Positions 1 through 10,486 of a DNA stretch of 64,000 nt are shown here, in pieces. The notes below the pieces were generated by a model. The model ran no database searches and was not told the DNA's origin. It was given only the letters and a program-made list of their open reading frames with translations. The stretch is from Lysobacteraceae bacterium NML93-0399 (GTDB lineage Bacteria > Pseudomonadota > Gammaproteobacteria > Xanthomonadales > Xanthomonadaceae), in the NCBI GenBank assembly GCA_002307375.1, contig NTJI01000001.1, positions 1,240,001 to 1,304,000 on the forward strand, in the 5' to 3' direction. The position numbers and the translations under genes were made by a program. The stretch's first letter is position 1. Every line of letters begins with the position of its first letter.

Positions 1-601
1 TCTGCACGAGCGTATCCGCCGCGCACTGCAGTCCGGTCGATACCTGCCCGGTCAGCGCATCGAGCCGCAGGCGGTGGCGCGCGAGTTCAAGACCAGCGTC
101 ACGCCTGTGCGCATGGCGCTTCATCGGCTCATCGGTGAGGGGATGATCGAGAACCATCCGCGGGGCGGGCTCTACGTGCCGCTTCTCGCCGAGGTGGACC
201 TGCGGGATCGATACGACTGGATGCACCAGATGCTGCGCGCGGCGTGCGAGATCGGCTGGAGCCCGCAGGTGCGAAAGCTTCGGGCACACCATGTGACTGC
301 CGATCCGGCTGATGTGCCCAAAAGCACATGGAAACTGTTCGACGCCATGGCGGAAGCCACCGAGCAGACCGCACTGCACCAGGCCGTGCGCCGCACTAAC
401 GATCAACTGGCGCCCGTGCGCCGTGCGAAGCAGACGTTGATCGAGGATGCCCATGCCGAAATCGCCGAGCTGTGCGCGCACTGGCAGTCGGGCGACATGG
501 CCGCGCTGAAGTCCGGCATCGATGCCTACTACGCACGCCGCATTCGCTTGGTCCCGAAGATTGTCTCCCTGCTCAACGCGAAGCGAGCGCGTCTGCACTG
601 A
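1..601 (+). CDS. GntR-family transcriptional regulator, 5' end cut by window
   Basis: The reading frame is open from the first base of the window (codons in phase from base 2), so the true start lies outside; the GTG at 74 is only an internal start. The first about 55 residues form a GntR-type winged helix: a LHERIRRAL helix, PGQRI, then a recognition helix in SVTPVRMALHRL and a wing with NHPRGGLYVP. The remaining about 145 residues are helical and carry no cofactor motif I can name; they could be a short FCD-like effector domain. Proteobacterial lasso peptide loci with isopeptidases often carry a regulator of this type, and the position directly upstream of the precursor genes in the same orientation suggests it controls the locus. 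That role is inference. No other gene separates it from the precursors. Confidence 0.8.
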   Translation, partial: LHERIRRALQSGRYLPGQRIEPQAVAREFKTSVTPVRMALHRLIGEGMIENHPRGGLYVPLLAEVDLRDRYDWMHQMLRAACEIGWSPQVRKLRAHHVTADPADVPKSTWKLFDAMAEATEQTALHQAVRRTNDQLAPVRRAKQTLIEDAHAEIAELCAHWQSGDMAALKSGIDAYYARRIRLVPKIVSLLNAKRARLH

Positions 602-675
602 GCAGCTGACTGCGCGGCTGTTGCCCGCAAGTCGAGATAATGGTCACAGCTCCGCAAGTATTCTCTGTGTATTAC

Positions 676-700
676 GCAAGAATTATTTGAAAATTCTTGC
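676..700. promoter_or_regulatory. 25-bp palindrome upstream of lasso precursor genes (candidate operator)
   Basis: Two perfect 9-base arms, GCAAGAATT (676-684) and AATTCTTGC (692-700), flank a 7-base spacer. It lies 61 bases before the first precursor start codon in an otherwise AT-rich patch unlike its surroundings. As DNA it could bind a dimeric regulator such as the GntR protein encoded just upstream; as RNA it would be a weak A/U stem. No clear sigma-70 boxes could be assigned around it. Confidence 0.55.
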
Positions 701-706
701 AGGCCA

Positions 707-754
707 CTCCTACGGTGGCTTCGTCATGGGACGTCCATGACGCAACCGTAGGAG
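707..754 (+). promoter_or_regulatory. Leader hairpin that sequesters the ribosome binding site of precursor 1
   Basis: Outer arms CTCCTACGGT (707-716) and ACCGTAGGAG (745-754) pair perfectly over 10 bases; inner arms CGTCATGG (722-729) and CCATGACG (735-742) pair perfectly over 8 bases around a 5-base loop. The 3' outer arm contains the GGAG (751-754) that is the only Shine-Dalgarno sequence for the ATG at 761 (6-base spacing). If transcribed from upstream, the RNA would therefore hide the ribosome site. A four-codon mini-ORF (ATG at 726, stop TGA 738-740) lies inside the inner stem-loop. What opens the hairpin is not visible. Confidence 0.7.
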
Positions 755-760
755 ACTGCA

Positions 761-901
761 ATGAGCATCAACGACAACATCCCCGCCGATGCGCGGGACG
801 AGGTGATCGAGCTCGGCGTGGCGAGCGTCGAGACGAAGGGTGGCGCCCTTGTCGGCGAAGACATCGGCGATCCCTTCATCCCCGGAATTTCCGAAGGCTG
901 A
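761..901 (+). CDS. Lasso peptide precursor 1, xanthomonin-like (46 aa)
   Basis: The product is a 46-residue RiPP precursor. The leader (residues 1-26) ends in VETK, with Thr at position -2, the hallmark of lasso leaders. The predicted 20-residue core is GGALVGEDIGDPFIPGISEG. Gly1 would form an isopeptide bond with Glu7, giving a seven-residue ring; residue 9 is Ile, the plug position known from xanthomonins, whose cores read GG(P)L(A)GEE(I/M)G and also end in a GISE-like tail. Asp8 is an alternative acceptor. The start codon ATG 761 follows GGAG at 751-754. The gene is too short to be recognised by size alone; identification rests on the Thr(-2), Gly1, Glu7 pattern, the second copy at 954 and the B and C genes downstream. 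Mature product may lose its last residues, as xanthomonins do. Confidence 0.9.
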   Translation: MSINDNIPADARDEVIELGVASVETKGGALVGEDIGDPFIPGISEG

Positions 902-908
902 CTCGATT

Positions 909-929
909 GGCAGAAAAAGACTTTCTGCC
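909..929 (+). other. Intercistronic stem-loop between precursor genes
   Basis: GGCAGAAA (909-916) and TTTCTGCC (922-929) pair perfectly around the loop AAGAC, eight bases after the stop of precursor 1. It is followed by CTTTCCG... rather than a long T tract, so it is more likely an RNA stabiliser or partial attenuator than a full terminator. Confidence 0.6.
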
Positions 930-953
930 TTTCCGCACATCGGAGATCTGATC

Positions 954-1103
954 ATGAAGACCAAAGAAGAGGCAACTCGGTTTGCTGGCGCGCCCAGCGA
1001 AGACGAGATCCTCCTTGGAGTCGCAAGTGTCGACACCAAGGGCGGCGCACTTCTCGGCGAGGACATGGGCAACACGACGCTGCCCGGAATCGCCGAGGAC
1101 TAG
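954..1103 (+). CDS. Lasso peptide precursor 2, xanthomonin-like (49 aa)
   Basis: A 49-residue precursor paralogous to the one at 761. Both leaders end in a (E/D)-rich stretch then LGVASV(E/D)TK, with Thr at -2. The core is GGALLGEDMGNTTLPGIAED: Gly1, Glu7 (ring of seven), Asp8, Met9 at the plug position, which matches the Ile/Met alternation seen at residue 9 in xanthomonins I and II. Ring residues GGAL(V/L)GED are nearly identical in the two peptides, whereas loop and tail residues 11-14 differ (DPFI against NTTL), so the pair would give two products with the same ring and different loops. ATG 954 has GGAG at 942-945. Same operon as precursor 1, 52 bases downstream. Confidence 0.9.
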   Translation: MKTKEEATRFAGAPSEDEILLGVASVDTKGGALLGEDMGNTTLPGIAED

Positions 1104-1109
1104 GAAGCA

Positions 1110-1136
1110 GGGGGCGCGCCACGAAGGCGCGCCCCC
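1110..1136 (+). other. Strong GC hairpin between precursor 2 and the B gene
   Basis: GGGGGCGCGCC (1110-1120) and GGCGCGCCCCC (1126-1136) form a perfect 11-bp stem with loop ACGAA, seven bases after the stop of precursor 2. No T tract follows. A stem-loop in this position is known from other proteobacterial lasso operons, where it raises precursor mRNA relative to the processing genes; that function is inferred here. Confidence 0.75.
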
Positions 1137-1161
1137 TCCGCTGACAGATGGAGAAACGCCC

Positions 1162-1833
1162 GTGGCTCAATACGCCCTCGCACACCAGATTTCGTACTGT
1201 CAGATTGGTAGTCGACTTGTATTCCTCGACGTCAGCCGGGATCGCTATTTCCGGCTCGGCAACGACCTTGAGACGGCACTTCTCGCTTACTTGTCTGGCG
1301 GAATACCCGAAGAAACCTGCGTTCAGAAATTGATCAAGAAAGGCGTGCTTGTAGACGAATCCGCCGCCATCGCCGAAAGGCAGCCTCTCGCGACGCTACC
1401 GTCAGAGAGCGCGATGGAGATGGCCGAGGTAGGCAGACGCAATCGCCTCACGGAAGTTCTGGAAGTGTTCCTGCTCGTGATCCACACGCGCATTCGGCTT
1501 CGGCTTAGCACGCTCGAGAGCATTCTCGATGACTATGCTCAACGCGAAGAAAGCCCCCACTCATCCTCTGGCTCGAGGGAAGACACACCTTACCTTCTGG
1601 CTGCATCCGCGGCTTTTCGGCGCGCCCGTCTATTCGTTCCGGTGAAGATGCGCTGCCTTGTCGACTCTATTGCACTTACCCGCTTCCTTCGGAGACGAGG
1701 TCTCCAGACCCGACTCGTGTTCGGCGTAGCGCTGGATCCGTTCTCTGCGCATTGCTGGGTGCAAGCAAGCGATCTCGTTCTGAACGACACTGTCGGGAAC
1801 GTCCGCTGTCATACAGCGATCAGGACGGTCTGA
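1162..1833 (+). CDS. Lasso peptide biosynthesis B protein (fused RRE and leader peptidase)
   Basis: The 223-residue product should bind the precursor leader and cut it off. Residues 1-about 70 look like the PqqD-like RiPP recognition element (QISYCQIGSRLVFLDVSRDRYFRL, then a helix ending in KKGVLVD). The C-terminal half is the transglutaminase-like cysteine protease fold: Cys165 in VKMRCLVDS, His197 in SAHCWVQ and Asp209 in LVLNDT give the expected Cys-His-Asp triad. Proteobacterial loci usually carry this fused form, unlike the split B1/B2 of Gram-positives. I chose GTG 1162 because GGAG lies at 1150-1153 and the RRE begins at once; an in-frame opening upstream runs through the hairpin and is not credible. 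It overlaps the C gene by one base (TGATG), so the two are translationally coupled. No odd features. Confidence 0.9.
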   Translation: MAQYALAHQISYCQIGSRLVFLDVSRDRYFRLGNDLETALLAYLSGGIPEETCVQKLIKKGVLVDESAAIAERQPLATLPSESAMEMAEVGRRNRLTEVLEVFLLVIHTRIRLRLSTLESILDDYAQREESPHSSSGSREDTPYLLAASAAFRRARLFVPVKMRCLVDSIALTRFLRRRGLQTRLVFGVALDPFSAHCWVQASDLVLNDTVGNVRCHTAIRTV

Positions 1834-3551
1834 TGTATCGTTTCACCGCACTGTTTGGCCAGCAAAGGGCTGCAAACGGAGGCCAGATTGGCGAGGCATT
1901 CCGCAACCTCGGCCTCAACCAAGTGTTGGACCATGAGCGCTTTGCTCTGTATGCCTCGGCCGACACGCCCGTCGTTCGAATTGATGCACGGTCAGTTCTG
2001 GTCGGCCACGCCTTCCGATGTGCTGATGGCAAACCACTAGCCGGCTCCAGCCGCCCCGAAATCCCTCTAAATACCGATCTCTCGCTCTACATGAGCGAGC
2101 AGTTCTGGGGTGACTACGTCCTGTTCGAATTCCCGAGCGCGGGCAGCTTCGACGTGACAAGAGACCCGTCGGGCGGCGTGGCCTGTGTGTTCTCCACAGC
2201 CTCGGGCTTCGTGACATCTGACATATCAACGATGGTCGACACAGGTTTGTATCACCGTGCGATCGACTGGAGCTTCATCCGGGAAAACCTGATTTACCCG
2301 CACATCAAAACCGGGTCAACCGGGCTTGCTGAGGTGATCGAGCTTCTCCCGGGCCATCGGTTGCGGGTCTCCGAGGACGGCGCCGACACAAGCGAAGTTT
2401 GGAGTCCTTGGCCGTTCGTATCCCCCGGCCGGCGTTATCGCAGCGCCTCCGAAGCTGCCGCGGCTGTTCGGTCGGCCGTCATCAAGGCCGTCGAGGCGTG
2501 GGCAGACACCGACCGCGACGTACTGCTCGAGCTGTCCGGCGGCCTGGATTCCTCAATTGTCGCGGCCTGCCTGCGGAACTCGAAAGCCCGGGTCACGTGC
2601 TGCAACCTGGTCACCGCGGTACCGGGCGCTGACGAGCGCGACTATGCGGTCGCCATGTCCGACCTGCTCGGCCAGGATCTCCATGTCAGAACATTGCGGG
2701 TTGAGGATGCAGAGTTCGACTTCCCGCCTCCATCGAACGCCGTCGCCCCCAGCACCTGGTTTCTTCAGAACGCCGCGAACAAGTTGAAAGAAGCCATCGG
2801 GCGAGAGCATGGCGTACGGAGCTTCTTCTCAGGCGGTGGCGGTGACACCGCGTTCGGCTACATCAAGACCGCTGCGCCTGCGGCTGACGCGTATCGGGAG
2901 CGCGGCCTGCTCGCGGCTGCACGTGCCGTTCGCGATCTTGCGGAGCTGCATCAATGCACTTTCTGGAAAGCGAGCAGGTTGACCGCGAGAAAGCTGCTTG
3001 CTCCTGCCAAGCCACCCCGCGTTCCTGACCTGTCATTTGTTCGCGACACCGCTCACCGCAGCGCGGCCAACCTCCACCCATGGTTCACCTCGCCTCCCGA
3101 TTCGCTTCCAGGAGACCGTGAGCGGATCTTTGATCTCGCGGGTGCTCAGATCTTCAGGGATGGCGTCGCGCGTTCCGCAACCTCCCACCTGCGCATGCCC
3201 CTGTTGTCCCAGCCCGTGGTCGAGGCCTGCCTTCGGGTGCCGAGTTGGATGTGGATTGAGGGGGGCCGTAACCGGTCCGTCGCTCGATCAGCGTTTGTGG
3301 ATGATTTGCCCGCGAAGATCCTGCACCGCCGGAGCAAGGGCACCTTTATGAACTACTCCGGCGCCGTCTATCGACGGAACAAGCACCTCTTGCGGGACTA
3401 CCTCCTGCGAGGATCGCTGGAGGGCCATGGTCTGCTGGATGCCCCTGCCCTGCAGCGCTTCTTCGATCGCCGCCACGATGACCTGGACGATGGGTTCATG
3501 CGCATCTTCGACCTGTGCTCCATTGAGAACTGGGTACGCCATCAGACTTGA
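1833..3551 (+). CDS. Lasso peptide cyclase (C protein, asparagine synthetase-like)
   Basis: This 572-residue enzyme is expected to adenylate the ring acidic side chain (Glu7 of the cores) and let the Gly1 amine attack it, closing the lasso. The N-terminal about 190 residues resemble the glutamine amidotransferase fold of asparagine synthetase B but lack its N-terminal Cys2, as in all lasso cyclases (it starts MYRFT). The ATP pyrophosphatase loop SGGLDSS is at residues 235-241, and a second synthetase-like segment, SGGGGDTAFGY, follows about 95 residues later. Length is typical for the family (about 550-600). ATG 1833 overlaps the B stop. The stop is only 12 bases from the convergent isopeptidase gene, with no obvious terminator in between. 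Confidence 0.92.
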   Translation: MYRFTALFGQQRAANGGQIGEAFRNLGLNQVLDHERFALYASADTPVVRIDARSVLVGHAFRCADGKPLAGSSRPEIPLNTDLSLYMSEQFWGDYVLFEFPSAGSFDVTRDPSGGVACVFSTASGFVTSDISTMVDTGLYHRAIDWSFIRENLIYPHIKTGSTGLAEVIELLPGHRLRVSEDGADTSEVWSPWPFVSPGRRYRSASEAAAAVRSAVIKAVEAWADTDRDVLLELSGGLDSSIVAACLRNSKARVTCCNLVTAVPGADERDYAVAMSDLLGQDLHVRTLRVEDAEFDFPPPSNAVAPSTWFLQNAANKLKEAIGREHGVRSFFSGGGGDTAFGYIKTAAPAADAYRERGLLAAARAVRDLAELHQCTFWKASRLTARKLLAPAKPPRVPDLSFVRDTAHRSAANLHPWFTSPPDSLPGDRERIFDLAGAQIFRDGVARSATSHLRMPLLSQPVVEACLRVPSWMWIEGGRNRSVARSAFVDDLPAKILHRRSKGTFMNYSGAVYRRNKHLLRDYLLRGSLEGHGLLDAPALQRFFDRRHDDLDDGFMRIFDLCSIENWVRHQT

Positions 3552-3563
3552 GGCGCCTGCGGT

Positions 3564-5645
3564 CTAGCGCGACCATGCCGCCGAGGCTTCGCGCATTTGT
3601 TGCCAGTGTTCGTACTGACTCTGCTTGCCGGGCCCTTCATCCTCGTGTCCCTGCAACCAGAACCGGAACCAATCCAGATTTCGCTCGTAGGCAGCGATCT
3701 TGTGCCGCGGCTGGAACTTCTGATGCGGCTCGTTGGGGAACACGTACAGATCTGCCTGATCCCGCCGCAGCAACGGGATCACGTAGTCCAGCGCGTACAG
3801 GTATTCCTGCTCGGAGTGCTGGAAGAGGATAGGCGCCTTCATCCTGTCGAGCTTGTAGGCGGGCGAGATCGCCTGCCAGCGTTCCGGCGTCTGTTCCGGA
3901 GATTCCAAACCCCACATGTCGCGAAGGCCATCAAAGAACATGTCGCCCTTCATGCTGCCGATCAGGTAGTACAGCGGCGAGACAACGGGGTTGGCGACCG
4001 AGGCCGCCGCGATCAAGTCAGATTCGGCGACGGTCCACAGTGTGACCGCGCCCCCCAGGCTCAGCCCGCCCATGCCCACGCGCGTCGGGTCGATCACGCC
4101 CTTGGCAGCCAGAAGATCAATGACGCTGCGCACGGCTTCCAGCCCCTCGCCGTGCCGCTCGACCGCGTCCATCGTGTAGTTGGGCAAGCGATTGATGCAG
4201 AGCGCGGAAATCCCGGCGGCGGCCAACGAGGCAAGCGGCCACTCGTCCCCTACTCCACCCCGCACGAAGCCTGGGCAGTTGTAGTAGGTCACGAACAATG
4301 GCGGCGGCGTGTCCGCCTCGTGGCGCGCCTGATACAGCAGGCCCGAAAATTCCCGACCTTCGTTGTCGGCCCATTGCAGACGACGCACGGCGGGCAGACG
4401 GGACATGTCCTGCGCCAGTGCTCGGTTGGGGTCGAACAGCACTTGGCGGTCACCGGTGTCGAGCTCGATCCACTCCAGTCGCGGCGGCTGCATCGGATCT
4501 GCCGTGACGCACGCCATGGCATCGGACGAGACGGCGCAGCCTGTCGCCGGGTCGCGGCCGCCACCGTTCACCAGGCCTCCAGACTGCACGACCGGATGCA
4601 CGTCGCCTGTCTCGATGTCCCAGCGATGGATCGACTGTGCCCAGCCCTCGGCGGGGTCGTGCGATGTGAACAGCACTTCCCGGTGTCGCGGGCGCCACTG
4701 GACGTCGGTGATCGAACGTCCGGTGCACGCATCGGCTACGCACTTGGCAACCGGCCCTCCACGCGCATCAGCCGTTGCCGACAGCAAGAGGTTTGGTGCC
4801 TGCTGTTGGCCCTCCGCCTCGCCGGTCCGGGTCAGCAGCGTGACGCCCATGCCGTCCGGCTGCGCAATCGACTTCCACAACTGGCCCTCCACGCCGTCCG
4901 GAACCGGTGGCGTGGCATGCCGTTCCGGGGAAGGCGCAGGTTGGAGCGGCGCAGAAATACCGGTCGCCAGATCGATTGCGTGCCAACGAAACGGCACATC
5001 CGACATCAAATTCCGGCGGCTGAACCAGATGTCCGCGAATCGCTGCGTCGCCATACGCCCTTCGACGTTGCCCGAACGGAACAAGCTCTGACCAATCGGC
5101 ACGTGCGGGTCGATACGAATGCCTCGGTCGTACTCGTCCGTCTCCGCCTTCGCGACAGTCTCGCGCGCAGCACCCACGCTGTAGTGCAGGAATCGACCGT
5201 CATCGCTGAGCTGGACCTCTTGCACATCGCCTGCTTCGGCAGTCATCGAGCCAGCACCTGTCCCGTCAGCCGCCGCGCGCCAGATGCCGATTCGCGCGTC
5301 GATCAACGCGCGGTAGTACAACCACCGCCCGTCGGGCGACCACACTGCGTTTACGGGTAGCGCCACGCCCGCGGAATCGCGCAGCGGAACGCCACCTTCG
5401 GCGATGCGGCGCGGCGCCGCGTCCTCACTCGTCTGCACGTACCAGACGGTGTCGTAGGTGTTGCGCTCGACCGACGCCTGCTCCGTCCGGAAGGCCACGC
5501 GACTGCCGTCTGGCGACATCACCGGATTCGCAATTTCCACGATTTCCAGCAGCTGCCGCGGTGCCACCGCGTGGGCGCTCGGCGAACCGGCGAGTACGCA
5601 GAGCAGGACGCCGGCCGCGAGGCCACGTGTTGAATCATTCGACAT
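3564..5645 (-). CDS. Atxe2-type lasso peptide isopeptidase (S9 family)
   Basis: The 693-residue protein has a signal peptide (hydrophobic LAAGVLLCVLAGSPSAHA, cleavage after about residue 26), a beta-propeller domain (repeated SPDG motifs at 44-47 and 103-106) and a C-terminal alpha/beta hydrolase domain. The nucleophile is Ser529 in GGLSLGG; His641 sits in NEPHQKF; the acid position carries Glu (612 or 614, in HSEQEYLY) instead of the Asp of ordinary prolyl oligopeptidases, as I recall for Atxe2. It should hydrolyse the isopeptide bond of the lasso, giving linear peptide, in the periplasm. Start at 5645 was chosen over an upstream in-frame ATG because a GGAGG-rich site lies just before it. 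It follows the TonB receptor gene by 41 bases in the same orientation, so they are probably one operon. Confidence 0.88.
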   Translation of the reverse strand: MSNDSTRGLAAGVLLCVLAGSPSAHAVAPRQLLEIVEIANPVMSPDGSRVAFRTEQASVERNTYDTVWYVQTSEDAAPRRIAEGGVPLRDSAGVALPVNAVWSPDGRWLYYRALIDARIGIWRAAADGTGAGSMTAEAGDVQEVQLSDDGRFLHYSVGAARETVAKAETDEYDRGIRIDPHVPIGQSLFRSGNVEGRMATQRFADIWFSRRNLMSDVPFRWHAIDLATGISAPLQPAPSPERHATPPVPDGVEGQLWKSIAQPDGMGVTLLTRTGEAEGQQQAPNLLLSATADARGGPVAKCVADACTGRSITDVQWRPRHREVLFTSHDPAEGWAQSIHRWDIETGDVHPVVQSGGLVNGGGRDPATGCAVSSDAMACVTADPMQPPRLEWIELDTGDRQVLFDPNRALAQDMSRLPAVRRLQWADNEGREFSGLLYQARHEADTPPPLFVTYYNCPGFVRGGVGDEWPLASLAAAGISALCINRLPNYTMDAVERHGEGLEAVRSVIDLLAAKGVIDPTRVGMGGLSLGGAVTLWTVAESDLIAAASVANPVVSPLYYLIGSMKGDMFFDGLRDMWGLESPEQTPERWQAISPAYKLDRMKAPILFQHSEQEYLYALDYVIPLLRRDQADLYVFPNEPHQKFQPRHKIAAYERNLDWFRFWLQGHEDEGPGKQSQYEHWQQMREASAAWSR

Positions 5646-5686
5646 TGGAACCTCCTCCACCTCGTCGCCGGATGCGCCGGCGCACG

Positions 5687-8332
5687 TCACCAGTGCTTGG
5701 AGACAGACAGGGACACAAACCGACCGACCGGCGAGTAGTTCGTCGAGTCGTAGGGCGCCACATAGAGCGGCGCCGTGACCTCGTAATGGGGCGGATCCCG
5801 ATCGAGCACGTTGTCGACCGAGAGCGCAATTTCCGTTCCCCCAAGGAAGCCGCGCTCCCGATCTGTCACGTAACGCAGCGACACATCCAGCGTGGTGAAG
5901 GACGCGGACTTCACCCCATCCAGGCGATTCGTCACGCCACTCGTGTGGTTGAAGAACGTGGACGTCGACAAGCCGCCCCGCTTCCAGACTCCGCCCAACC
6001 GGGCGTTGAGCTTGGCGGGATTGAACAACGTGCCCGACAGGTCATACGCCGCCTGACCGGGAATCGTCTGCTGGGTACTGTCCAGCCAGCTTGCCGAGCC
6101 GCGAAGCGTCAGCGAGCCAAGCGCCAGATCGGTGCGATAGGTGCCGGACACATCAATGCCGCGGATGTCCTGGCTGGCGACATTGACGTACTGCAGATAG
6201 ACGAGCGCTGCGACCTTGCTCGGGTCATACGGCGTAGCGATCGCGCTGCGAAACGTATCGGCCCGGTCGAGCAGCGCTTGTTGCGCTGCCAGAGACGGCG
6301 CCAGATCCACAAAAGGTGCGTACAGCGCATTGCTCAGCGCCTGAGGGGAGTTCGCGATGGGCTGGACGACCCGGTTGGTATACGCCACCTGGAACCATGT
6401 CAGCTCTGCCTCCAGTCCCGGCAAGGCGTCAGGATGCCACGCCAAAGACACGGACCTGGTGGTTGCGCGCTCCGGGTCGAGATCGCGGTTGCCGCCCGTC
6501 ACCGCAAGCAAGGTGGCATCGGGTGCATATCCCACGCCGCCGAAACTGCTGGGGTGGTACAGCCAGGCGTCGGCGGATGCATACCGCTCGAACAGCGTGG
6601 GTGCCTTGAATGACCTGCCCCATGACGCCTTCAACGTCATGTCGGGATTGGGGCCATAGATGAGCCCCAGCTTTGGCGTGGTGACCTGGCCAAAACTGCT
6701 GTAGTCCTCTGCGCGCGCAGCGGCGGTCACCGACAGGCGTTCAATGCCCGCCCTCCCCTGCTCCGGTGAGACCACCGGCACGTCGATCTCCGCGTAGGCG
6801 AACCGCGCGCGCTCGCTGCCATCCACGGTGTTCATGCCCGTGACGCGATTGGTGCTTCGAAATGTATTGCGGCGTTGGCCGATACCGGTTGCGATGCGTG
6901 CGTCCCCGGCGGGCAGCGCAAAGAGCGGGCCCTCTGCGCCGATCTCATAGCTGCGGCTTTCGTTGCAGTAGCACACGTCCGAAATGCTCGTGACGCCGGT
7001 GGCAGCGATCGTCTCGCGGCGCACCTGCTCATGCGTGCCCCGGCCGAATGCGCCGTTGACCGACAGGCTCCAGTCATTGGGCAGCCACACCTCGGCGCTC
7101 GGGGCTATCAGCGTTGTCATCGTGTAAGGCGTGACCACACTGTGTCGCCCCGCCCAGTTGTAGTGGTGCAGTTGATCGCGCTCGGTACGCAGGGCATCCA
7201 CCCGAAGCTCCACTGCATCGTCCAGCGACTGGTGGGCGCTCAAAAGACCGCTGCGCAAATCGCTGCCGGGGTACAGCGTCGAGGGGTCCACCAATTGCTC
7301 GGTGTAGGCACGCCTGTCGCTGTAGATCGGATCGACGGATGCATCCTTGTAGGTTGCGATCAGCCCGCCACCGGACCACGTTGCACCCGTGGTGACCGTG
7401 TACTCGCGCGTGGACAGCCCGCCCTGCGTGGCCGAGCCGAAGCGGGCACCAAGCCCCACGCCGTCATAGTCGCGCTTGAGCACCACGTTGCCTACGCCAC
7501 CCACAGCATCGGAGCCATAGATCGCCGACGCGCCGTCGGCGACGATTTCGATGCGCTCCACCGCCTCGACCGGAATCGCGCTGATGTCCACCGACTGCGT
7601 GAAACCGCCGTAGGCCATGCGCCGACCGTTGAGCAGCGTCAGCGTGGCGTCCGCACCCAGACCGCGCAGGTTGAGGCCCGAGCCGCCGGTCATGTTCTGG
7701 TTTGCGTTGCCCGCACCGGAGATGTTGCCGCTTAGCACGCCAGGATTCTGTCCACCGCTGAAGTTCTGCGGCACGCTGCGGATCACCTCGCCCAGATCGG
7801 CGAAGCCCTCTTCACGGATGCGTTCGCTGCCTAGCGTGATCACCGGCGATGGCGTGGTGCCGCCGCGGATGCGGGTGCCGGTGACGGTGATCGTTTCGAG
7901 GTCCGTCGCGTTCGTGCCTTGCGGTGCGCGTGCGGCAGCGGGTTCGGGCGCGGGGATGCGGTCGGCGGCTGCGAGAGCGGGCTCGATCACTACGGTGCCG
8001 TCGTCTGCCTCGCGGTAGTTCAGGCCACTTCCCTGCAGCAGCCTCGCAACGGCGTCGGTCCAATGCATGCGGCCTTGGACCGACCTCCCCTGTCGGTTCT
8101 CGACCACTTCTAGTGCGTACGTTATACGGCGGCCGCTCTGCGCGCCGAATGCATCCAGAGATGCCGCCAGCGCGCCTGGAGCCAAGTCGAACTGCTGCGC
8201 GTCCTGCGCCTCATTCGAGATCCGCGCCGTCTCGCGGCCATCCGAACTCCGTGCCACCGCCAGACTTGTCGTTCCGACTGCGGTGGCGAACAAGGCGATA
8301 GAGATCGCCCCACGTAGTGTGTGTGTCCTCAT
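5687..8332 (-). CDS. TonB-dependent receptor with N-terminal STN domain, probable lasso peptide importer
   Basis: An 881-residue outer membrane receptor. Residues 1-about 28 are a signal peptide; about 48-118 form an STN (secretin/TonB short N-terminal) domain (FDLAPGALAASLDAFGAQSG and later DDGTVVIEP); a TonB box-like ETITVTGTRI precedes a plug domain with LRGLGADATLTLLNGRR; the rest is a 22-strand-type barrel ending in Trp (SVSKHW). STN domains usually signal through FecR/FecI, but no fecIR pair is visible in the window, so either it lies to the left or signalling is lost. Position beside an isopeptidase is the arrangement known for lasso loci, suggesting uptake of the cognate peptide; uptake of a metal-free or metal-bound peptide cannot be judged. 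AAGGGA precedes the ATG at 8332. Confidence 0.85.
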   Translation of the reverse strand: MRTHTLRGAISIALFATAVGTTSLAVARSSDGRETARISNEAQDAQQFDLAPGALAASLDAFGAQSGRRITYALEVVENRQGRSVQGRMHWTDAVARLLQGSGLNYREADDGTVVIEPALAAADRIPAPEPAAARAPQGTNATDLETITVTGTRIRGGTTPSPVITLGSERIREEGFADLGEVIRSVPQNFSGGQNPGVLSGNISGAGNANQNMTGGSGLNLRGLGADATLTLLNGRRMAYGGFTQSVDISAIPVEAVERIEIVADGASAIYGSDAVGGVGNVVLKRDYDGVGLGARFGSATQGGLSTREYTVTTGATWSGGGLIATYKDASVDPIYSDRRAYTEQLVDPSTLYPGSDLRSGLLSAHQSLDDAVELRVDALRTERDQLHHYNWAGRHSVVTPYTMTTLIAPSAEVWLPNDWSLSVNGAFGRGTHEQVRRETIAATGVTSISDVCYCNESRSYEIGAEGPLFALPAGDARIATGIGQRRNTFRSTNRVTGMNTVDGSERARFAYAEIDVPVVSPEQGRAGIERLSVTAAARAEDYSSFGQVTTPKLGLIYGPNPDMTLKASWGRSFKAPTLFERYASADAWLYHPSSFGGVGYAPDATLLAVTGGNRDLDPERATTRSVSLAWHPDALPGLEAELTWFQVAYTNRVVQPIANSPQALSNALYAPFVDLAPSLAAQQALLDRADTFRSAIATPYDPSKVAALVYLQYVNVASQDIRGIDVSGTYRTDLALGSLTLRGSASWLDSTQQTIPGQAAYDLSGTLFNPAKLNARLGGVWKRGGLSTSTFFNHTSGVTNRLDGVKSASFTTLDVSLRYVTDRERGFLGGTEIALSVDNVLDRDPPHYEVTAPLYVAPYDSTNYSPVGRFVSLSVSKHW

Positions 8333-8540
8333 GGTGCGTCCCTTGCTCCCGCCTGTTGGCTATGTCGAAGTCTTTTTCAGCCACGCGATTGACTCGTCCG
8401 AAATAAGAGCGGGAGAACACCGTGCGTACTGAGTGCGTGACCACGCGGCTGCGCCCTGCCCCTAGTGCCTGGGGCGCTCGGCGCAACGCCTTTCGGCGCG
8501 CACCATGCGTCCAGCACTGGCAAGACCATACGCCATAATG

Positions 8541-8589
8541 AGAGTTATATCCAGTAGATTTATATGCTGTAGATCGAGAGCCGGTAGAG
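8541..8589 (+). promoter_or_regulatory. Triple direct repeat upstream of xre gene 1 (candidate operator)
   Basis: Three copies of (A/T/G)GTAGA start at 8553, 8568 and 8583, exactly 15 bases apart, preceded by AGAGTTATATCC. The same block, with the same spacing, occurs before the second xre gene at 8903. Presumably a binding array for one or both XRE proteins overlapping their promoters; the shared TTATAT could supply a -10 element. Confidence 0.6.
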
Positions 8590-8604
8590 GGACAGGCTGG
8601 GCAC

Positions 8605-8862
8605 ATGTCCTCGCCCCCTTCCGAAGCTGCCCTGAAGGTCCGCGCCCGAGTCGGCGCGAATGTGCGTCGCCTGCGCGAAGCCATGCCGGATGACGTGAGT
8701 CAGGAGGAACTTGGTGAGATGGCCGAGTGCCATCGCACTTATGTCTCTCAGCTAGAGCGTGCCAAGACCAACATCTCCATCGATCGCTTGGTTCGGTTTG
8801 CCGTGATCTTTGAAGTGGATATCGTTGATCTGCTCCTAGAGCACGAAGATGGAGACGCGTGA
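8605..8862 (+). CDS. XRE-family helix-turn-helix regulator 1 (85 aa)
   Basis: A small Cro/C1-type DNA-binding protein that is one HTH domain: VGANVRRLREAMPDDVSQEELGEMAECHRTYVSQLERAKTN are helices 1-4 (residues about 17-58), then the SIDRLVRFAVIFEVDIVDLL dimer region. There is no effector domain. It is about half identical by eye to the second XRE protein at 8968 and has the same repeat array in front, so the two arose by duplication of gene plus operator. The shape resembles controller proteins of restriction systems, and a nuclease gene follows at 9524; functional linkage is inference. The start ATG 8605 lacks a good Shine-Dalgarno sequence. Confidence 0.8.
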   Translation: MSSPPSEAALKVRARVGANVRRLREAMPDDVSQEELGEMAECHRTYVSQLERAKTNISIDRLVRFAVIFEVDIVDLLLEHEDGDA

Positions 8863-8902
8863 CCTCCTGCGGTGCGAGCGAGACCAATCGACACATTCAT
8901 GT

Positions 8903-8951
8903 AGAGTTATATCCAGTAGATTTATAGTCTGTAGATCGTAAGGCGGTAGAT
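8903..8951 (+). promoter_or_regulatory. Triple direct repeat upstream of xre gene 2 (candidate operator)
   Basis: AGTAGAT at 8915, TGTAGAT at 8930 and GGTAGAT at 8945 are spaced exactly 15 bases, preceded by AGAGTTATATCC as at 8541. Conservation extends over about 45 bases while the sequence between the block and the upstream gene does not match, so the block is under selection or recently duplicated. Confidence 0.6.
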
Positions 8952-8967
8952 GCTCAGGCTTGGAGCC

Positions 8968-9210
8968 ATGCCCTCCAAGCCCTCAAAGAAGCCGTCGCAA
9001 AGCGCGCGACAACGCGTTGCCGCGAACATTCGACGCTTGCGCAAGGGAGAGGGACTTAGCCAGGAGGAGCTCGCAGATGCGGCGGAGTTCCACCGGACCT
9101 ACATCTCGCAGCTCGAGCGTTGCGTCACCAACATCTCGATTGATGGACTCGAGCGTTTGGCGGAGGTTCTTGGCGTGGACATCCTTGACCTGCTGCAGCC
9201 CTCGGCGTAG
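8968..9210 (+). CDS. XRE-family helix-turn-helix regulator 2 (80 aa)
   Basis: A single HTH domain protein, paralogue of the one at 8605. It has ARQRVAANIRRLRKGEGLSQEELADAAEFHRTYISQLERCVTN followed by ISIDGLERLAEVLGVDILDLL, the classic XRE signature. ATG 8968 gives an 80-residue protein with a Lys/Ser-rich N-terminus; an upstream in-frame ATG at 8950 overlaps the last repeat of the candidate operator, so I prefer 8968, although TGGAG before it is rather close. Together with regulator 1 it may form a cross-regulating pair. 313 bases separate it from the nuclease gene, so co-transcription is uncertain. Confidence 0.8.
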   Translation: MPSKPSKKPSQSARQRVAANIRRLRKGEGLSQEELADAAEFHRTYISQLERCVTNISIDGLERLAEVLGVDILDLLQPSA

Positions 9211-9523
9211 CAACTGGCTCTAGTTGGCTGACTCAGCCGTCCGTCGAAGAACCGGATAGCCACTTCGACTGCAGATGCATCCAGTCGCACAACTCAGAAA
9301 GTCCTTACAAAGCGGTTGGGCACGCTCCGATGGATGCCACATGTCTTGCCAAGCAAAGTTGATTCGTCAGCAACGCGCGATCCCCAGTCCTCCTCGGGTA
9401 GCCAGACGCGCGGGCCGAGGAATGGAGCGCCTCGGCTGCTGCCCCTCAATCCTCTCTTCAACGGTCAACGGCGACTTGTAGGCCGCCAGTGATGTAGCCT
9501 GGCCGGCGGAGGGGATGCCGCTT
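9211..9523. other. Non-coding gap between xre 2 and the HNH nuclease gene
   Basis: No convincing reading frame, RNA gene or hairpin terminator was found. The last bases hold the GGAGGGG Shine-Dalgarno sequence (9508-9514) of the nuclease gene. It presumably contains that gene's promoter, which I could not place. Confidence 0.5.
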
Positions 9524-10486
9524 ATGGATGACACGCCAGTGCAGTCGCTGCGACGAGCAGGCGCCGATCTGCCTTATCAGATGGGCGGGCTCTACAGCCG
9601 GCGGCTAGACATCCACGACAAGTGGGGAGGCCAGCGGCAAGGCGGGATCTCGACTCCGAAGGATGGCCCGTTCGTCTTCATCTTCACCGGTGAAGCGGGC
9701 AAAGCGCACGGCTATACGGATTCGTGGGATGACGACGGCATCCTTCACTACTACGGCGAGGGCCAGCAAGGCGACATGACGATGCGCGGTGGCAACAAGG
9801 CCATCGCGCAGCACATTCAGAGTGGCAAGCGACTTCTCGTGTTCAAGTCGCTTGGTCACGGCAAGCCTTATCGGTTTGACGGCGAGTTTGTCTGCCTCTC
9901 GTCGTACGCCAAGCCTGATACGCCCGCAACGATCGGCGCAAACCGGACTGCCATCGTGTTCCGGCTTCAGCCCGTTGATGGCGCATCTTCACATGGCAAC
10001 TCGATTGAGTCGCCATCGGATGTGGAAATGCGACTGGGAAGCACAGTTGCCATGCGTTTAGGCGCCGTGCGTACCAAGCAGCAGCTCTTCCGCCGCAGGC
10101 TGATCGATATCGAGAAGAGCTGCCGCATTACCGGCGTCATGGATCTCCGATTTCTGCGCGCCAGCCACATAAAGCCCTGGTCGGGATCTTCCGCAGCCGA
10201 GCGCACGGACGGCAACAACGGCTTGTTACTAACGCCAACTGCCGATCACCTGTTCGATAAAGGCTGGATCTCCTTCGAAGCGCAGGGCCAGCTCCTTGTC
10301 TCGAATGAGATCCCTTCAAACGTACTAGAAAAGATTGGTTTGAAGCTCAAGAAAGGTTCGCGAGTCGGTGCATTCAATGAAATGCAAGGTAGGTTCCTCG
10401 AGTTCCATCGGAACAAGATCTTCGAGCATGCTTATCGAGGTGTGCGAGACCCCCTGGAAGAGCTTGTCGAAGTGCTCGGCTCGTGA
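9524..10486 (+). CDS. HNH endonuclease, McrA-like (possible modification-dependent restriction enzyme)
   Basis: A 320-residue protein. The C-terminal part has the HNH_2 pattern: CRITGVMDLRFLRASHIKPW, then ERTDGNNGLLLTPTADHLFDKGWISF, with a metal-binding His in SHI, Asn in NNG and His in DHLFD. The N-terminal half (YSRRLDIHDKWGGQRQGGI, then FIFTGEAGKAHGY, YYGEGQQGDM) resembles the SRA-like DNA-recognition part of ScoMcrA-type enzymes, with which modified bases are read. It would therefore cut modified foreign DNA (type IV restriction). ATG 9524 lies 9 bases after GGAGGGG; the in-frame ATG at 9515 touches that sequence and is less likely. No methyltransferase gene is nearby, consistent with type IV. 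The XRE pair upstream may control it. Specificity unknown. Confidence 0.75.
   Translation: MDDTPVQSLRRAGADLPYQMGGLYSRRLDIHDKWGGQRQGGISTPKDGPFVFIFTGEAGKAHGYTDSWDDDGILHYYGEGQQGDMTMRGGNKAIAQHIQSGKRLLVFKSLGHGKPYRFDGEFVCLSSYAKPDTPATIGANRTAIVFRLQPVDGASSHGNSIESPSDVEMRLGSTVAMRLGAVRTKQQLFRRRLIDIEKSCRITGVMDLRFLRASHIKPWSGSSAAERTDGNNGLLLTPTADHLFDKGWISFEAQGQLLVSNEIPSNVLEKIGLKLKKGSRVGAFNEMQGRFLEFHRNKIFEHAYRGVRDPLEELVEVLGS

Follow-up and report, generated by a model that had tools for sequence, protein, structure and literature searches.

A xanthomonin-clade lasso peptide locus with two predicted Gly1-Glu7 rings and a conserved promoter-like leader in Lysobacteraceae bacterium NML93-0399

To our knowledge, seven residues is the smallest ring size among lasso peptides. 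Xanthomonins I and II, the described peptides closest to those treated here, come from Xanthomonas and were reportedly introduced by Hegemann in 2014. Both xanthomonins are reported from X. hortorum (PMC9062649, PMC11639067). An E7D variant of xanthomonin II reportedly gave no product, and Thr(-2) is reported to be required (PMC4960549); four tail residues are missing from the crystal form of xanthomonin I (PMC13352647). Outside Xanthomonas, a 7-residue ring was predicted in print in 2015 for StcA of Stenotrophomonas acidaminiphila (PMC4675943). In AtxE2-type clusters, an isopeptidase and a TonB receptor adjoin the A-B-C genes. A siderophore-like role for isopeptidase clusters has been proposed (PMC11006600).

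Here, we analysed a window of 64,000 nucleotides from Lysobacteraceae bacterium NML93-0399 (contig NTJI01000001.1). The original prediction had placed two lasso precursor genes within 761..1103, and both open reading frames were found there (761-901 and 954-1103). The genes run in the order A1-A2-B-C on the + strand, followed by a convergent AtxE2-type isopeptidase and a TonB receptor on the - strand:

1..601, + strand: GntR-type regulator gene, starting slightly upstream of the window (PF00392, 48.9 bits for the part in the window)
761..901, + strand: A1, lasso precursor of 46 aa, predicted core GGALVGEDIGDPFIPGISEG, core codons 839-898
909..929, + strand: weak small hairpin in the A1-A2 intergenic stretch (z -1.74 when 900-960 is folded)
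954..1103, + strand: A2, lasso precursor of 49 aa, predicted core GGALLGEDMGNTTLPGIAED, core codons 1041-1100
1110..1136, + strand: strong hairpin, rich in G+C and lacking a T run, in the gap from A2 to B (1100-1160, -34 kcal/mol, z -4.42)
1162..1833, + strand: B protein, leader peptidase domain (NF033537, 84.4 bits, cut-off 33; PF13471, 76 bits)
1833..3551, + strand: C protein, asparagine-synthetase-like lasso cyclase (PF00733, 109 bits)
3564..5690, - strand: AtxE2-family lasso peptide isopeptidase (NF033523, 621.8 bits, cut-off 400; limits are those of the open reading frame)
5687..8332, - strand: TonB-dependent receptor with an STN domain (PF00593, PF07715, PF07660)

A1 consists of MSINDNIPADARDEVIELGVASVETK and then its core, and A2 of MKTKEEATRFAGAPSEDEILLGVASVDTK and then its core. 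A1 scores above the cut-offs of both the Pfam model PF24178 (43.8 bits, curated cut-off 27) and the NCBIfam model NF033522 of the benenodin family (44.3 bits, cut-off 33), and A2 lies above the latter (35.4 bits) and slightly under the former (25.8 bits). Both leaders end in SV(E/D)TK with Thr at -2, and both cores contain Gly1, Glu7, Asp8 and either Ile9 (A1) or Met9 (A2), with no Cys. The neutral monoisotopic masses after loss of water were recomputed as 1880.916 for core 1 and 1911.888 for core 2, in agreement with the values of about 1880.9 and 1911.9 calculated earlier by hand. The [M+H]+ values of the full-length forms are calculated as 1881.923 and 1912.896, and 16-residue trimmed forms would lie at 1495.743 and 1484.705. 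Since genes for B, C, an isopeptidase and a TonB receptor follow, and near-identical precursors recur elsewhere, these open reading frames are not products of chance, and sequence comparison confirms A1 and A2 as genuine lasso precursors.

The genes adjoining A are those of an AtxE2-type lasso cluster. A leader peptidase B and an asparagine-synthetase-like cyclase C lie next to A, the isopeptidase scores above its cut-off, and the TonB receptor is present; no ABC exporter is found among 10 proteins scanned from positions 1-10483 of the window. The N-terminal part of B presumably recognizes the precursor, and the match of B to the PqqD-type model reaches an E-value of only 0.055. The start of C overlaps the stop of B, and C exceeds the cut-off of none of the NCBIfam models, including those for lasso cyclases. 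The best solved relatives of the isopeptidase are the AtxE2 structures 5txc and 5txe, and the full-length GntR-type protein, taken from the genome, scores 50.1 bits against PF00392. The hairpin at 1110-1136 may uncouple the expression of B and C from that of A. In heterologous lasso expression, the segment between the precursor and B genes is reported to be replaced (PMC7549694). Beyond the receptor, two small helix-turn-helix genes adjoin each other (8605-8862 and 8950-9210), with a near-identical stretch (GAGTTATATCCAGTAGATTTATA...) in front of each, an arrangement that resembles a tandem duplication with repeated regulator sites.

The genome holds a second lasso cluster on contig 4 (G000:C4, about 78462-84600; L008). 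This cluster comprises a GntR gene, a leader element, an A gene with the core GPAGINEFVGTLMGSGISDE (Glu7), B, C, an isopeptidase and a receptor, with C split by an inner stop over two frames; the same core lies at locus L052 of genome G276 beside a C homolog free of an inner stop. The broken C homolog indicates that decay or assembly error does occur, and one might ask if the window cluster is likewise a relic that is poorly or not expressed. However, A1, A2, B, C, the isopeptidase and the receptor each occupy one open frame, and a sister genome and other collections retain nearly the same cores. We therefore consider a relic extremely improbable.

To place the locus among its relatives, 395 genomes of its own family were searched for cyclases, and 45 of them hold a C homolog at E <= 1e-60. 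In a tree of 57 cyclases, the window falls into an 18-row xanthomonin clade with support of 100/99, together with L013-L023, the G186 locus, two Rhodanobacter loci and Luteimonas terricola, among others; within it, three 'GED' loci including the window form a sub-branch with support of 98/91. L013-L023 are 11 loci of another genus whose C proteins are 56-58% identical to that of the window. All 11 carry the core GGPLAGEEIGGFNVPGISEE, and the second core is GGPLAGEEMGGITTLGISQD in 7 of the 11 and a near copy in the remainder. We take these cores to be xanthomonins I and II; a literature text search did not find published xanthomonin strings matching them. A1 and A2 occupy the positions of the precursors taken as those of xanthomonin I and II, keeping Ile9 and Met9, respectively. 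The earlier description of the peptides as xanthomonin-like is thus borne out by the same two-precursor order, by the positions of Ile9 and Met9 and by the grouping of the cyclase (100/99, 18 rows) with loci taken to encode xanthomonins.

Similar to xanthomonins I and II, the locus has an A1 with Ile9 and an A2 with Met9, B and C after them, the core pattern G-G-x-L-x-G-E7 and an adjoining isopeptidase. In contrast, the window cores have Ala3 instead of Pro3, Val or Leu5 instead of Ala5 and Asp8 instead of Glu8, their loops and tails differ (DPFIP, NTTLP), and the cyclases diverge to the extent given above. StcA, which is predicted only, resembles the window peptides in its 7-residue ring, its leader end (SVETQ) and its tail (PGISEE), whereas its core is GILQGNEPMGGEPVPGISEE and a single precursor was named. 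The closest relative is G276, probably Luteimonas fraxinea (L010, L060; P0005, P0071), with a cyclase 80% identical to that of the window. Each of its cores is one residue apart from its counterpart (SES for SEG; TTM for TTL), the loop of its leader hairpin differs in length, and its A2 (P0071) is already listed in UniRef as a benenodin family lasso peptide. At the L119 locus (Luteimonas terricola) and the L118 and L120 loci (Rhodanobacter), clade cores carry Val or Phe at position 8 (GGPLTNEVIGG, GGPLMNEVIGG, GGPLSGEFIGG and GQPGMGEVVGE), natural variants that are useful for tests of ring closure.

The original prediction regarded the two peptides as undescribed members of this group. The core strings had no printed match in the literature text search, which is a weak test of novelty, as the same search also missed the xanthomonin strings. 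In protein databases, however, identical cores do exist. Core 1 is letter-identical in four of the top five of 54 proteins found (P0001-P0004), with P0005 differing in the last residue, and core 2 is letter-identical in one of four proteins found (P0070, on a contig of 6,166 bases). Core 1 has no match among solved structures in a set limited to chains of at least 20 residues, in which the shorter xanthomonin chains could therefore not appear. The peptides thus look uncharacterised rather than unseen, and are new members of an already known lasso type. Among the clade cores with Asp8, four of six come from the window and G276, and G312 supplies the other two, one with Ala3 and one with Asn3; judged by these cores, the combination of Ala3 and Asp8 is a trait of a small Luteimonas subclade.

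The ring of both peptides could close on Glu7 or on its neighbour Asp8. Clade cores were collected by asking for the leader motif followed by a core of 14-28 residues, with no other demand on the core, and two spurious frame matches were dropped. Gly1 and Glu7 are present in 18 of 18 distinct true cores from the 18 clade loci, whereas residue 8 is E in 8, D in 6, V in 3 and F in 1; residue 9 is M in 9, I in 7 and V in 2. As Glu7 is invariant and residue 8 varies, residue 8 cannot be the general acceptor in the clade. Across the order, we gathered 72 distinct cores by a leader motif including Thr -2 together with Gly1, the multi-core precursors lying beyond the length limit, and position 7 holds Glu in 60 of them, Asp in 3 and some other residue in 9. 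Closure on Asp8 would give a ring of eight residues, a size shared by many other lasso peptides, and leave Glu7 a mere neighbour. Asp8 does occur in the two window cores as well as in 6 of the 18 clade cores, and the first acid stands at position 8 in 9 of the 72 cores, so 8-residue rings probably occur in relatives; in principle, Asp8 could act as the acceptor in the GED subclade. Nevertheless, four of the 18 clade cores have Val or Phe at this position while all keep Glu7, and Glu7 prevails across the order, which makes an Asp8 ring very unlikely. Consistent with this, the E7D result for xanthomonin II agrees with Gly1-Glu7 as the likely ring. Both window cores have the Glu7 of the xanthomonin type, and the seven-residue Gly1-Glu7 ring favoured in the original prediction is the best-supported and likely one for both peptides. 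Such a ring is likely not exceptional in this lineage and would be the usual one in the 72-core set.

Precursors with more than one core were also observed in relatives. At L061:4516-4800 (G054), a lasso precursor contains three tandem cores (GIPVGTTEPLG.., GIPGKLDEPLG.. and GFPVGADEPLG..), each preceded by a leader-like motif GxASxET(R/Q); the Pfam Subterisin model matches three stretches, and the leader model R1, described below, also matches upstream. Fourteen relatives of this precursor (P0056-P0069) comprise 6 three-core and 8 two-core proteins as judged by eye, the search being restricted to proteins of 0.55 to 1.75 times the query length, so that single-core precursors were left out. 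Descriptions of multi-core lasso precursors were not found among the papers listed in a literature search that covered mainly freely available articles.

Upstream of A1, we found an element that the original prediction had not mentioned, consisting of TTGAAA, a spacing of 18 nt, a -10-like box, a covarying hairpin and a Shine-Dalgarno sequence:

658..674, + strand: weak candidate dyad, possible regulator site, at -65 to -49 from the hairpin
687..692, + strand: TTGAAA, -35-like hexamer (T, T, G, A in 60, 60, 59 and 58 of 62 leaders)
707..713, + strand: CTCCTAC, candidate anti-Shine-Dalgarno arm, complementary to 748-754 and overlapping the -10-like box (suggestive only)
711..716, + strand: TACGGT (TACGCT-like), -10-like hexamer separated by 18 nt from its -35-like partner (among 62 leaders, T is kept in 55, A in 60 and the final T in 61)
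722..742, + strand: conserved 8-bp hairpin, GTCATGG / CCATGAC with loop GACGT; relatives retain the outermost pair only weakly
748..754, + strand: GTAGGAG with the A1 Shine-Dalgarno sequence, kept in relatives

The 62 leaders comprise 44 of the window's own family and 18 of another family (f12), anchored at the start of the hairpin. Relative to this point, the T, T, G, A positions lie at -36 to -33 and the T, A, T positions at -12, -11 and -7. When the leaders are aligned freely, a single gap appears between the boxes in L045 and in L059, and L055 has one additional base ahead of the hairpin. The start codon follows 17-23 nt after the second hairpin arm. The dyad at 658..674 is the best-scoring one in this set, yet it is only 47% complementary, against 38.5% expected, and is held with low confidence. 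The second lasso cluster of the genome shows the same leader architecture with partly different letters.

For the hairpin itself, we built an alignment of 83-nt segments that end at the start codon, using 44 of the 51 leaders from the family and leaving out seven near-copies; the GTG start of L012 was chosen by eye, and the L062 leader was matched by the covariance model though absent from the alignment. The consensus fold of the 44 leaders contains one 8-bp hairpin with 95.7% of cells paired, and sliding the partner by 1-3 columns lowers pairing to 17-52%. Cells changed on both sides number 24, compared with 10.0 in shuffles (0/500 as high), four of the eight pairs show compensatory changes (10/500 as high), and further pair types number 8, compared with 6.4 (27/500). 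In 12 of 44 leaders the outermost bases do not pair, the four invariant pairs are uninformative, and the shuffles ignore kinship. In the 18 f12 leaders, the arms GTCATGG and CCATGAC are wholly invariant and thus add no covariation, which points to a constraint on the sequence as well. None of the Rfam 15 models matches the hairpin at E-values up to 5.

This constraint raises the question of whether the hairpin is instead a DNA operator, in which the neighbouring GntR-type regulator, or some other protein, would recognize GTCATGG and CCATGAC as half-sites. The hairpin is palindromic, and a GntR gene usually adjoins: a homolog lies 5' of A in 20 of 21 loci in L039-L059 (the exception being L056) and in 7 of 7 loci in L060-L066, and no match was obtained in L014, L015, L017, L019, L023, L027 and L028, which hold little upstream sequence. 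Moreover, the four pairs that never vary in the 44 leaders and the invariant f12 arms are not explained by pairing alone. However, the spacing between the 6-nt arms ranges from 3 to 9 nt over the 62 leaders (3 nt in 1, 5 in 5, 6 in 12, 7 in 40, 8 in 3 and 9 in 1), so that the half-sites would turn around the helix relative to each other, and arm changes are compensated on the opposite side far more often than in shuffles, as given above. We regard an operator as unlikely.

To trace the element across genomes, the covariance model R1 was built from the 44 family leaders. In its own family, which is the training group, R1 matches 52 places in 44 of 395 genomes, and these are the 45 genomes with a C homolog minus G314, whose C is only 32% identical. 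In the order, there are 39 places in 35 of 398 genomes, 20 of which, with 22 places, belong to f12, a family outside the training. Altogether, R1 marks 74 distinct places in the family and the order, and all 49 that were examined (31 from its own family and 18 from f12) precede a lasso precursor. In a draw from the phylum, R1 matches 2 of 398 genomes, the window genome and one of f12, and the isopeptidase model 7 of 398, the two draws being taken as one set of genomes from their matching identifiers and size. The five isopeptidase genomes from a more distant family outside the order gave no R1 match under strict scan filters, which may lose weak matches. The window genome contains the exact hairpin once and the TTGAAAAT-TCCTA pair once, the second cluster differing in letters, and a 14-nt box around the -35-like hexamer occurs, at no more than one mismatch, only before the two lasso clusters.

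The conserved T, T, G, A and T, A, T positions are the best-kept ones of sigma-70 promoters. If the boxes are a promoter, the transcript would be expected to start at or near the hairpin. A strict scan of 560-1200 for sigma-70 promoters and terminators returned neither, so the argument for a promoter comes entirely from comparison between leaders. The fold of 640-800 reaches -59.6 kcal/mol, compared with -42.4 kcal/mol for shuffles (z -4.27). A Shine-Dalgarno switch read at face value from this full fold was rejected, since the consensus fold of the 44 leaders keeps only the inner hairpin.

The position of the transcript start would matter for the ribosome site. For a message beginning at the hairpin, over half of the Shine-Dalgarno sequence is predicted to be unpaired in 50 of 62 leaders, and for one beginning 32 nt upstream, in 8 of 62. 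For the outer arm, co-change with the Shine-Dalgarno region was assessed in 42 dereplicated leaders, and permuted partners gave a value as low as the real one in 7 of 1000 and 27 of 5000 trials. The latter count rises to 62/5000 without L009, to 257/5000 without four strong leaders and to 158/5000 with swaps between equal-length partners only. The mean rank of native arm partners is 0.37, hardly better than that of two control segments (0.40 and 0.44), which show no co-change. Since kinship is uncontrolled in the permutations, the pairing between the outer arm and the Shine-Dalgarno sequence is suggestive. As pairing is possible between the -10-like box and the Shine-Dalgarno sequence, transcripts started upstream may be silent. 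In phage T4 genes e and soc, only transcripts from their own promoters are translated. There, the promoter lies inside the arm covering the ribosome site; the leader here is a candidate likeness, with no relationship claimed, and unlike e and soc it belongs to a chromosomal lasso operon. We tentatively propose, as a possibility short of an even chance, a two-layer leader in Xanthomonadales, in which transcripts from the own promoter would open with a short protective hairpin and have a free ribosome site, read-through from GntR would bear the full double hairpin and be translationally silent, and the GntR-type protein would be the likely switch.

Collectively, we are confident that the window holds a complete xanthomonin-clade lasso locus of a Luteimonas-like bacterium, with a predicted Gly1-Glu7 ring, putative receptor uptake and isopeptidase opening, and a conserved promoter-like leader next to GntR. 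By analogy with known lasso biology, B would bind the leader and cut after Lys(-1), and C would activate Glu7 and join it to the amino group of Gly1, forming a seven-residue ring around the tail. Residue 9 (Ile/Met) would sit near the plug, and the tail is probably trimmed. The TonB receptor may re-import the peptide, free or with cargo, and the isopeptidase would open the ring, as known for AtxE2 clusters. The conserved promoter-like element would set precursor expression, with the transcript beginning at or near the 5' hairpin, beside the GntR-type regulator.

With these two peptides, the lasso peptides with seven-residue rings gain a small Luteimonas subclade. Moreover, the 72 cores suggest that isopeptidase-type lasso clusters of the order normally carry Glu7, so that ring size can be studied as a trait of lineages. 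No description of the leader element was found among the papers listed in the literature search, which covered mainly freely available articles. If confirmed, the leader would provide a sequence signature that locates such clusters from DNA alone and a handle on switching them on, a step that commonly stands in the way of identifying what isopeptidase-type lasso peptides are made and what they do. If the two-layer reading is true, peptide production depends on where transcription starts.
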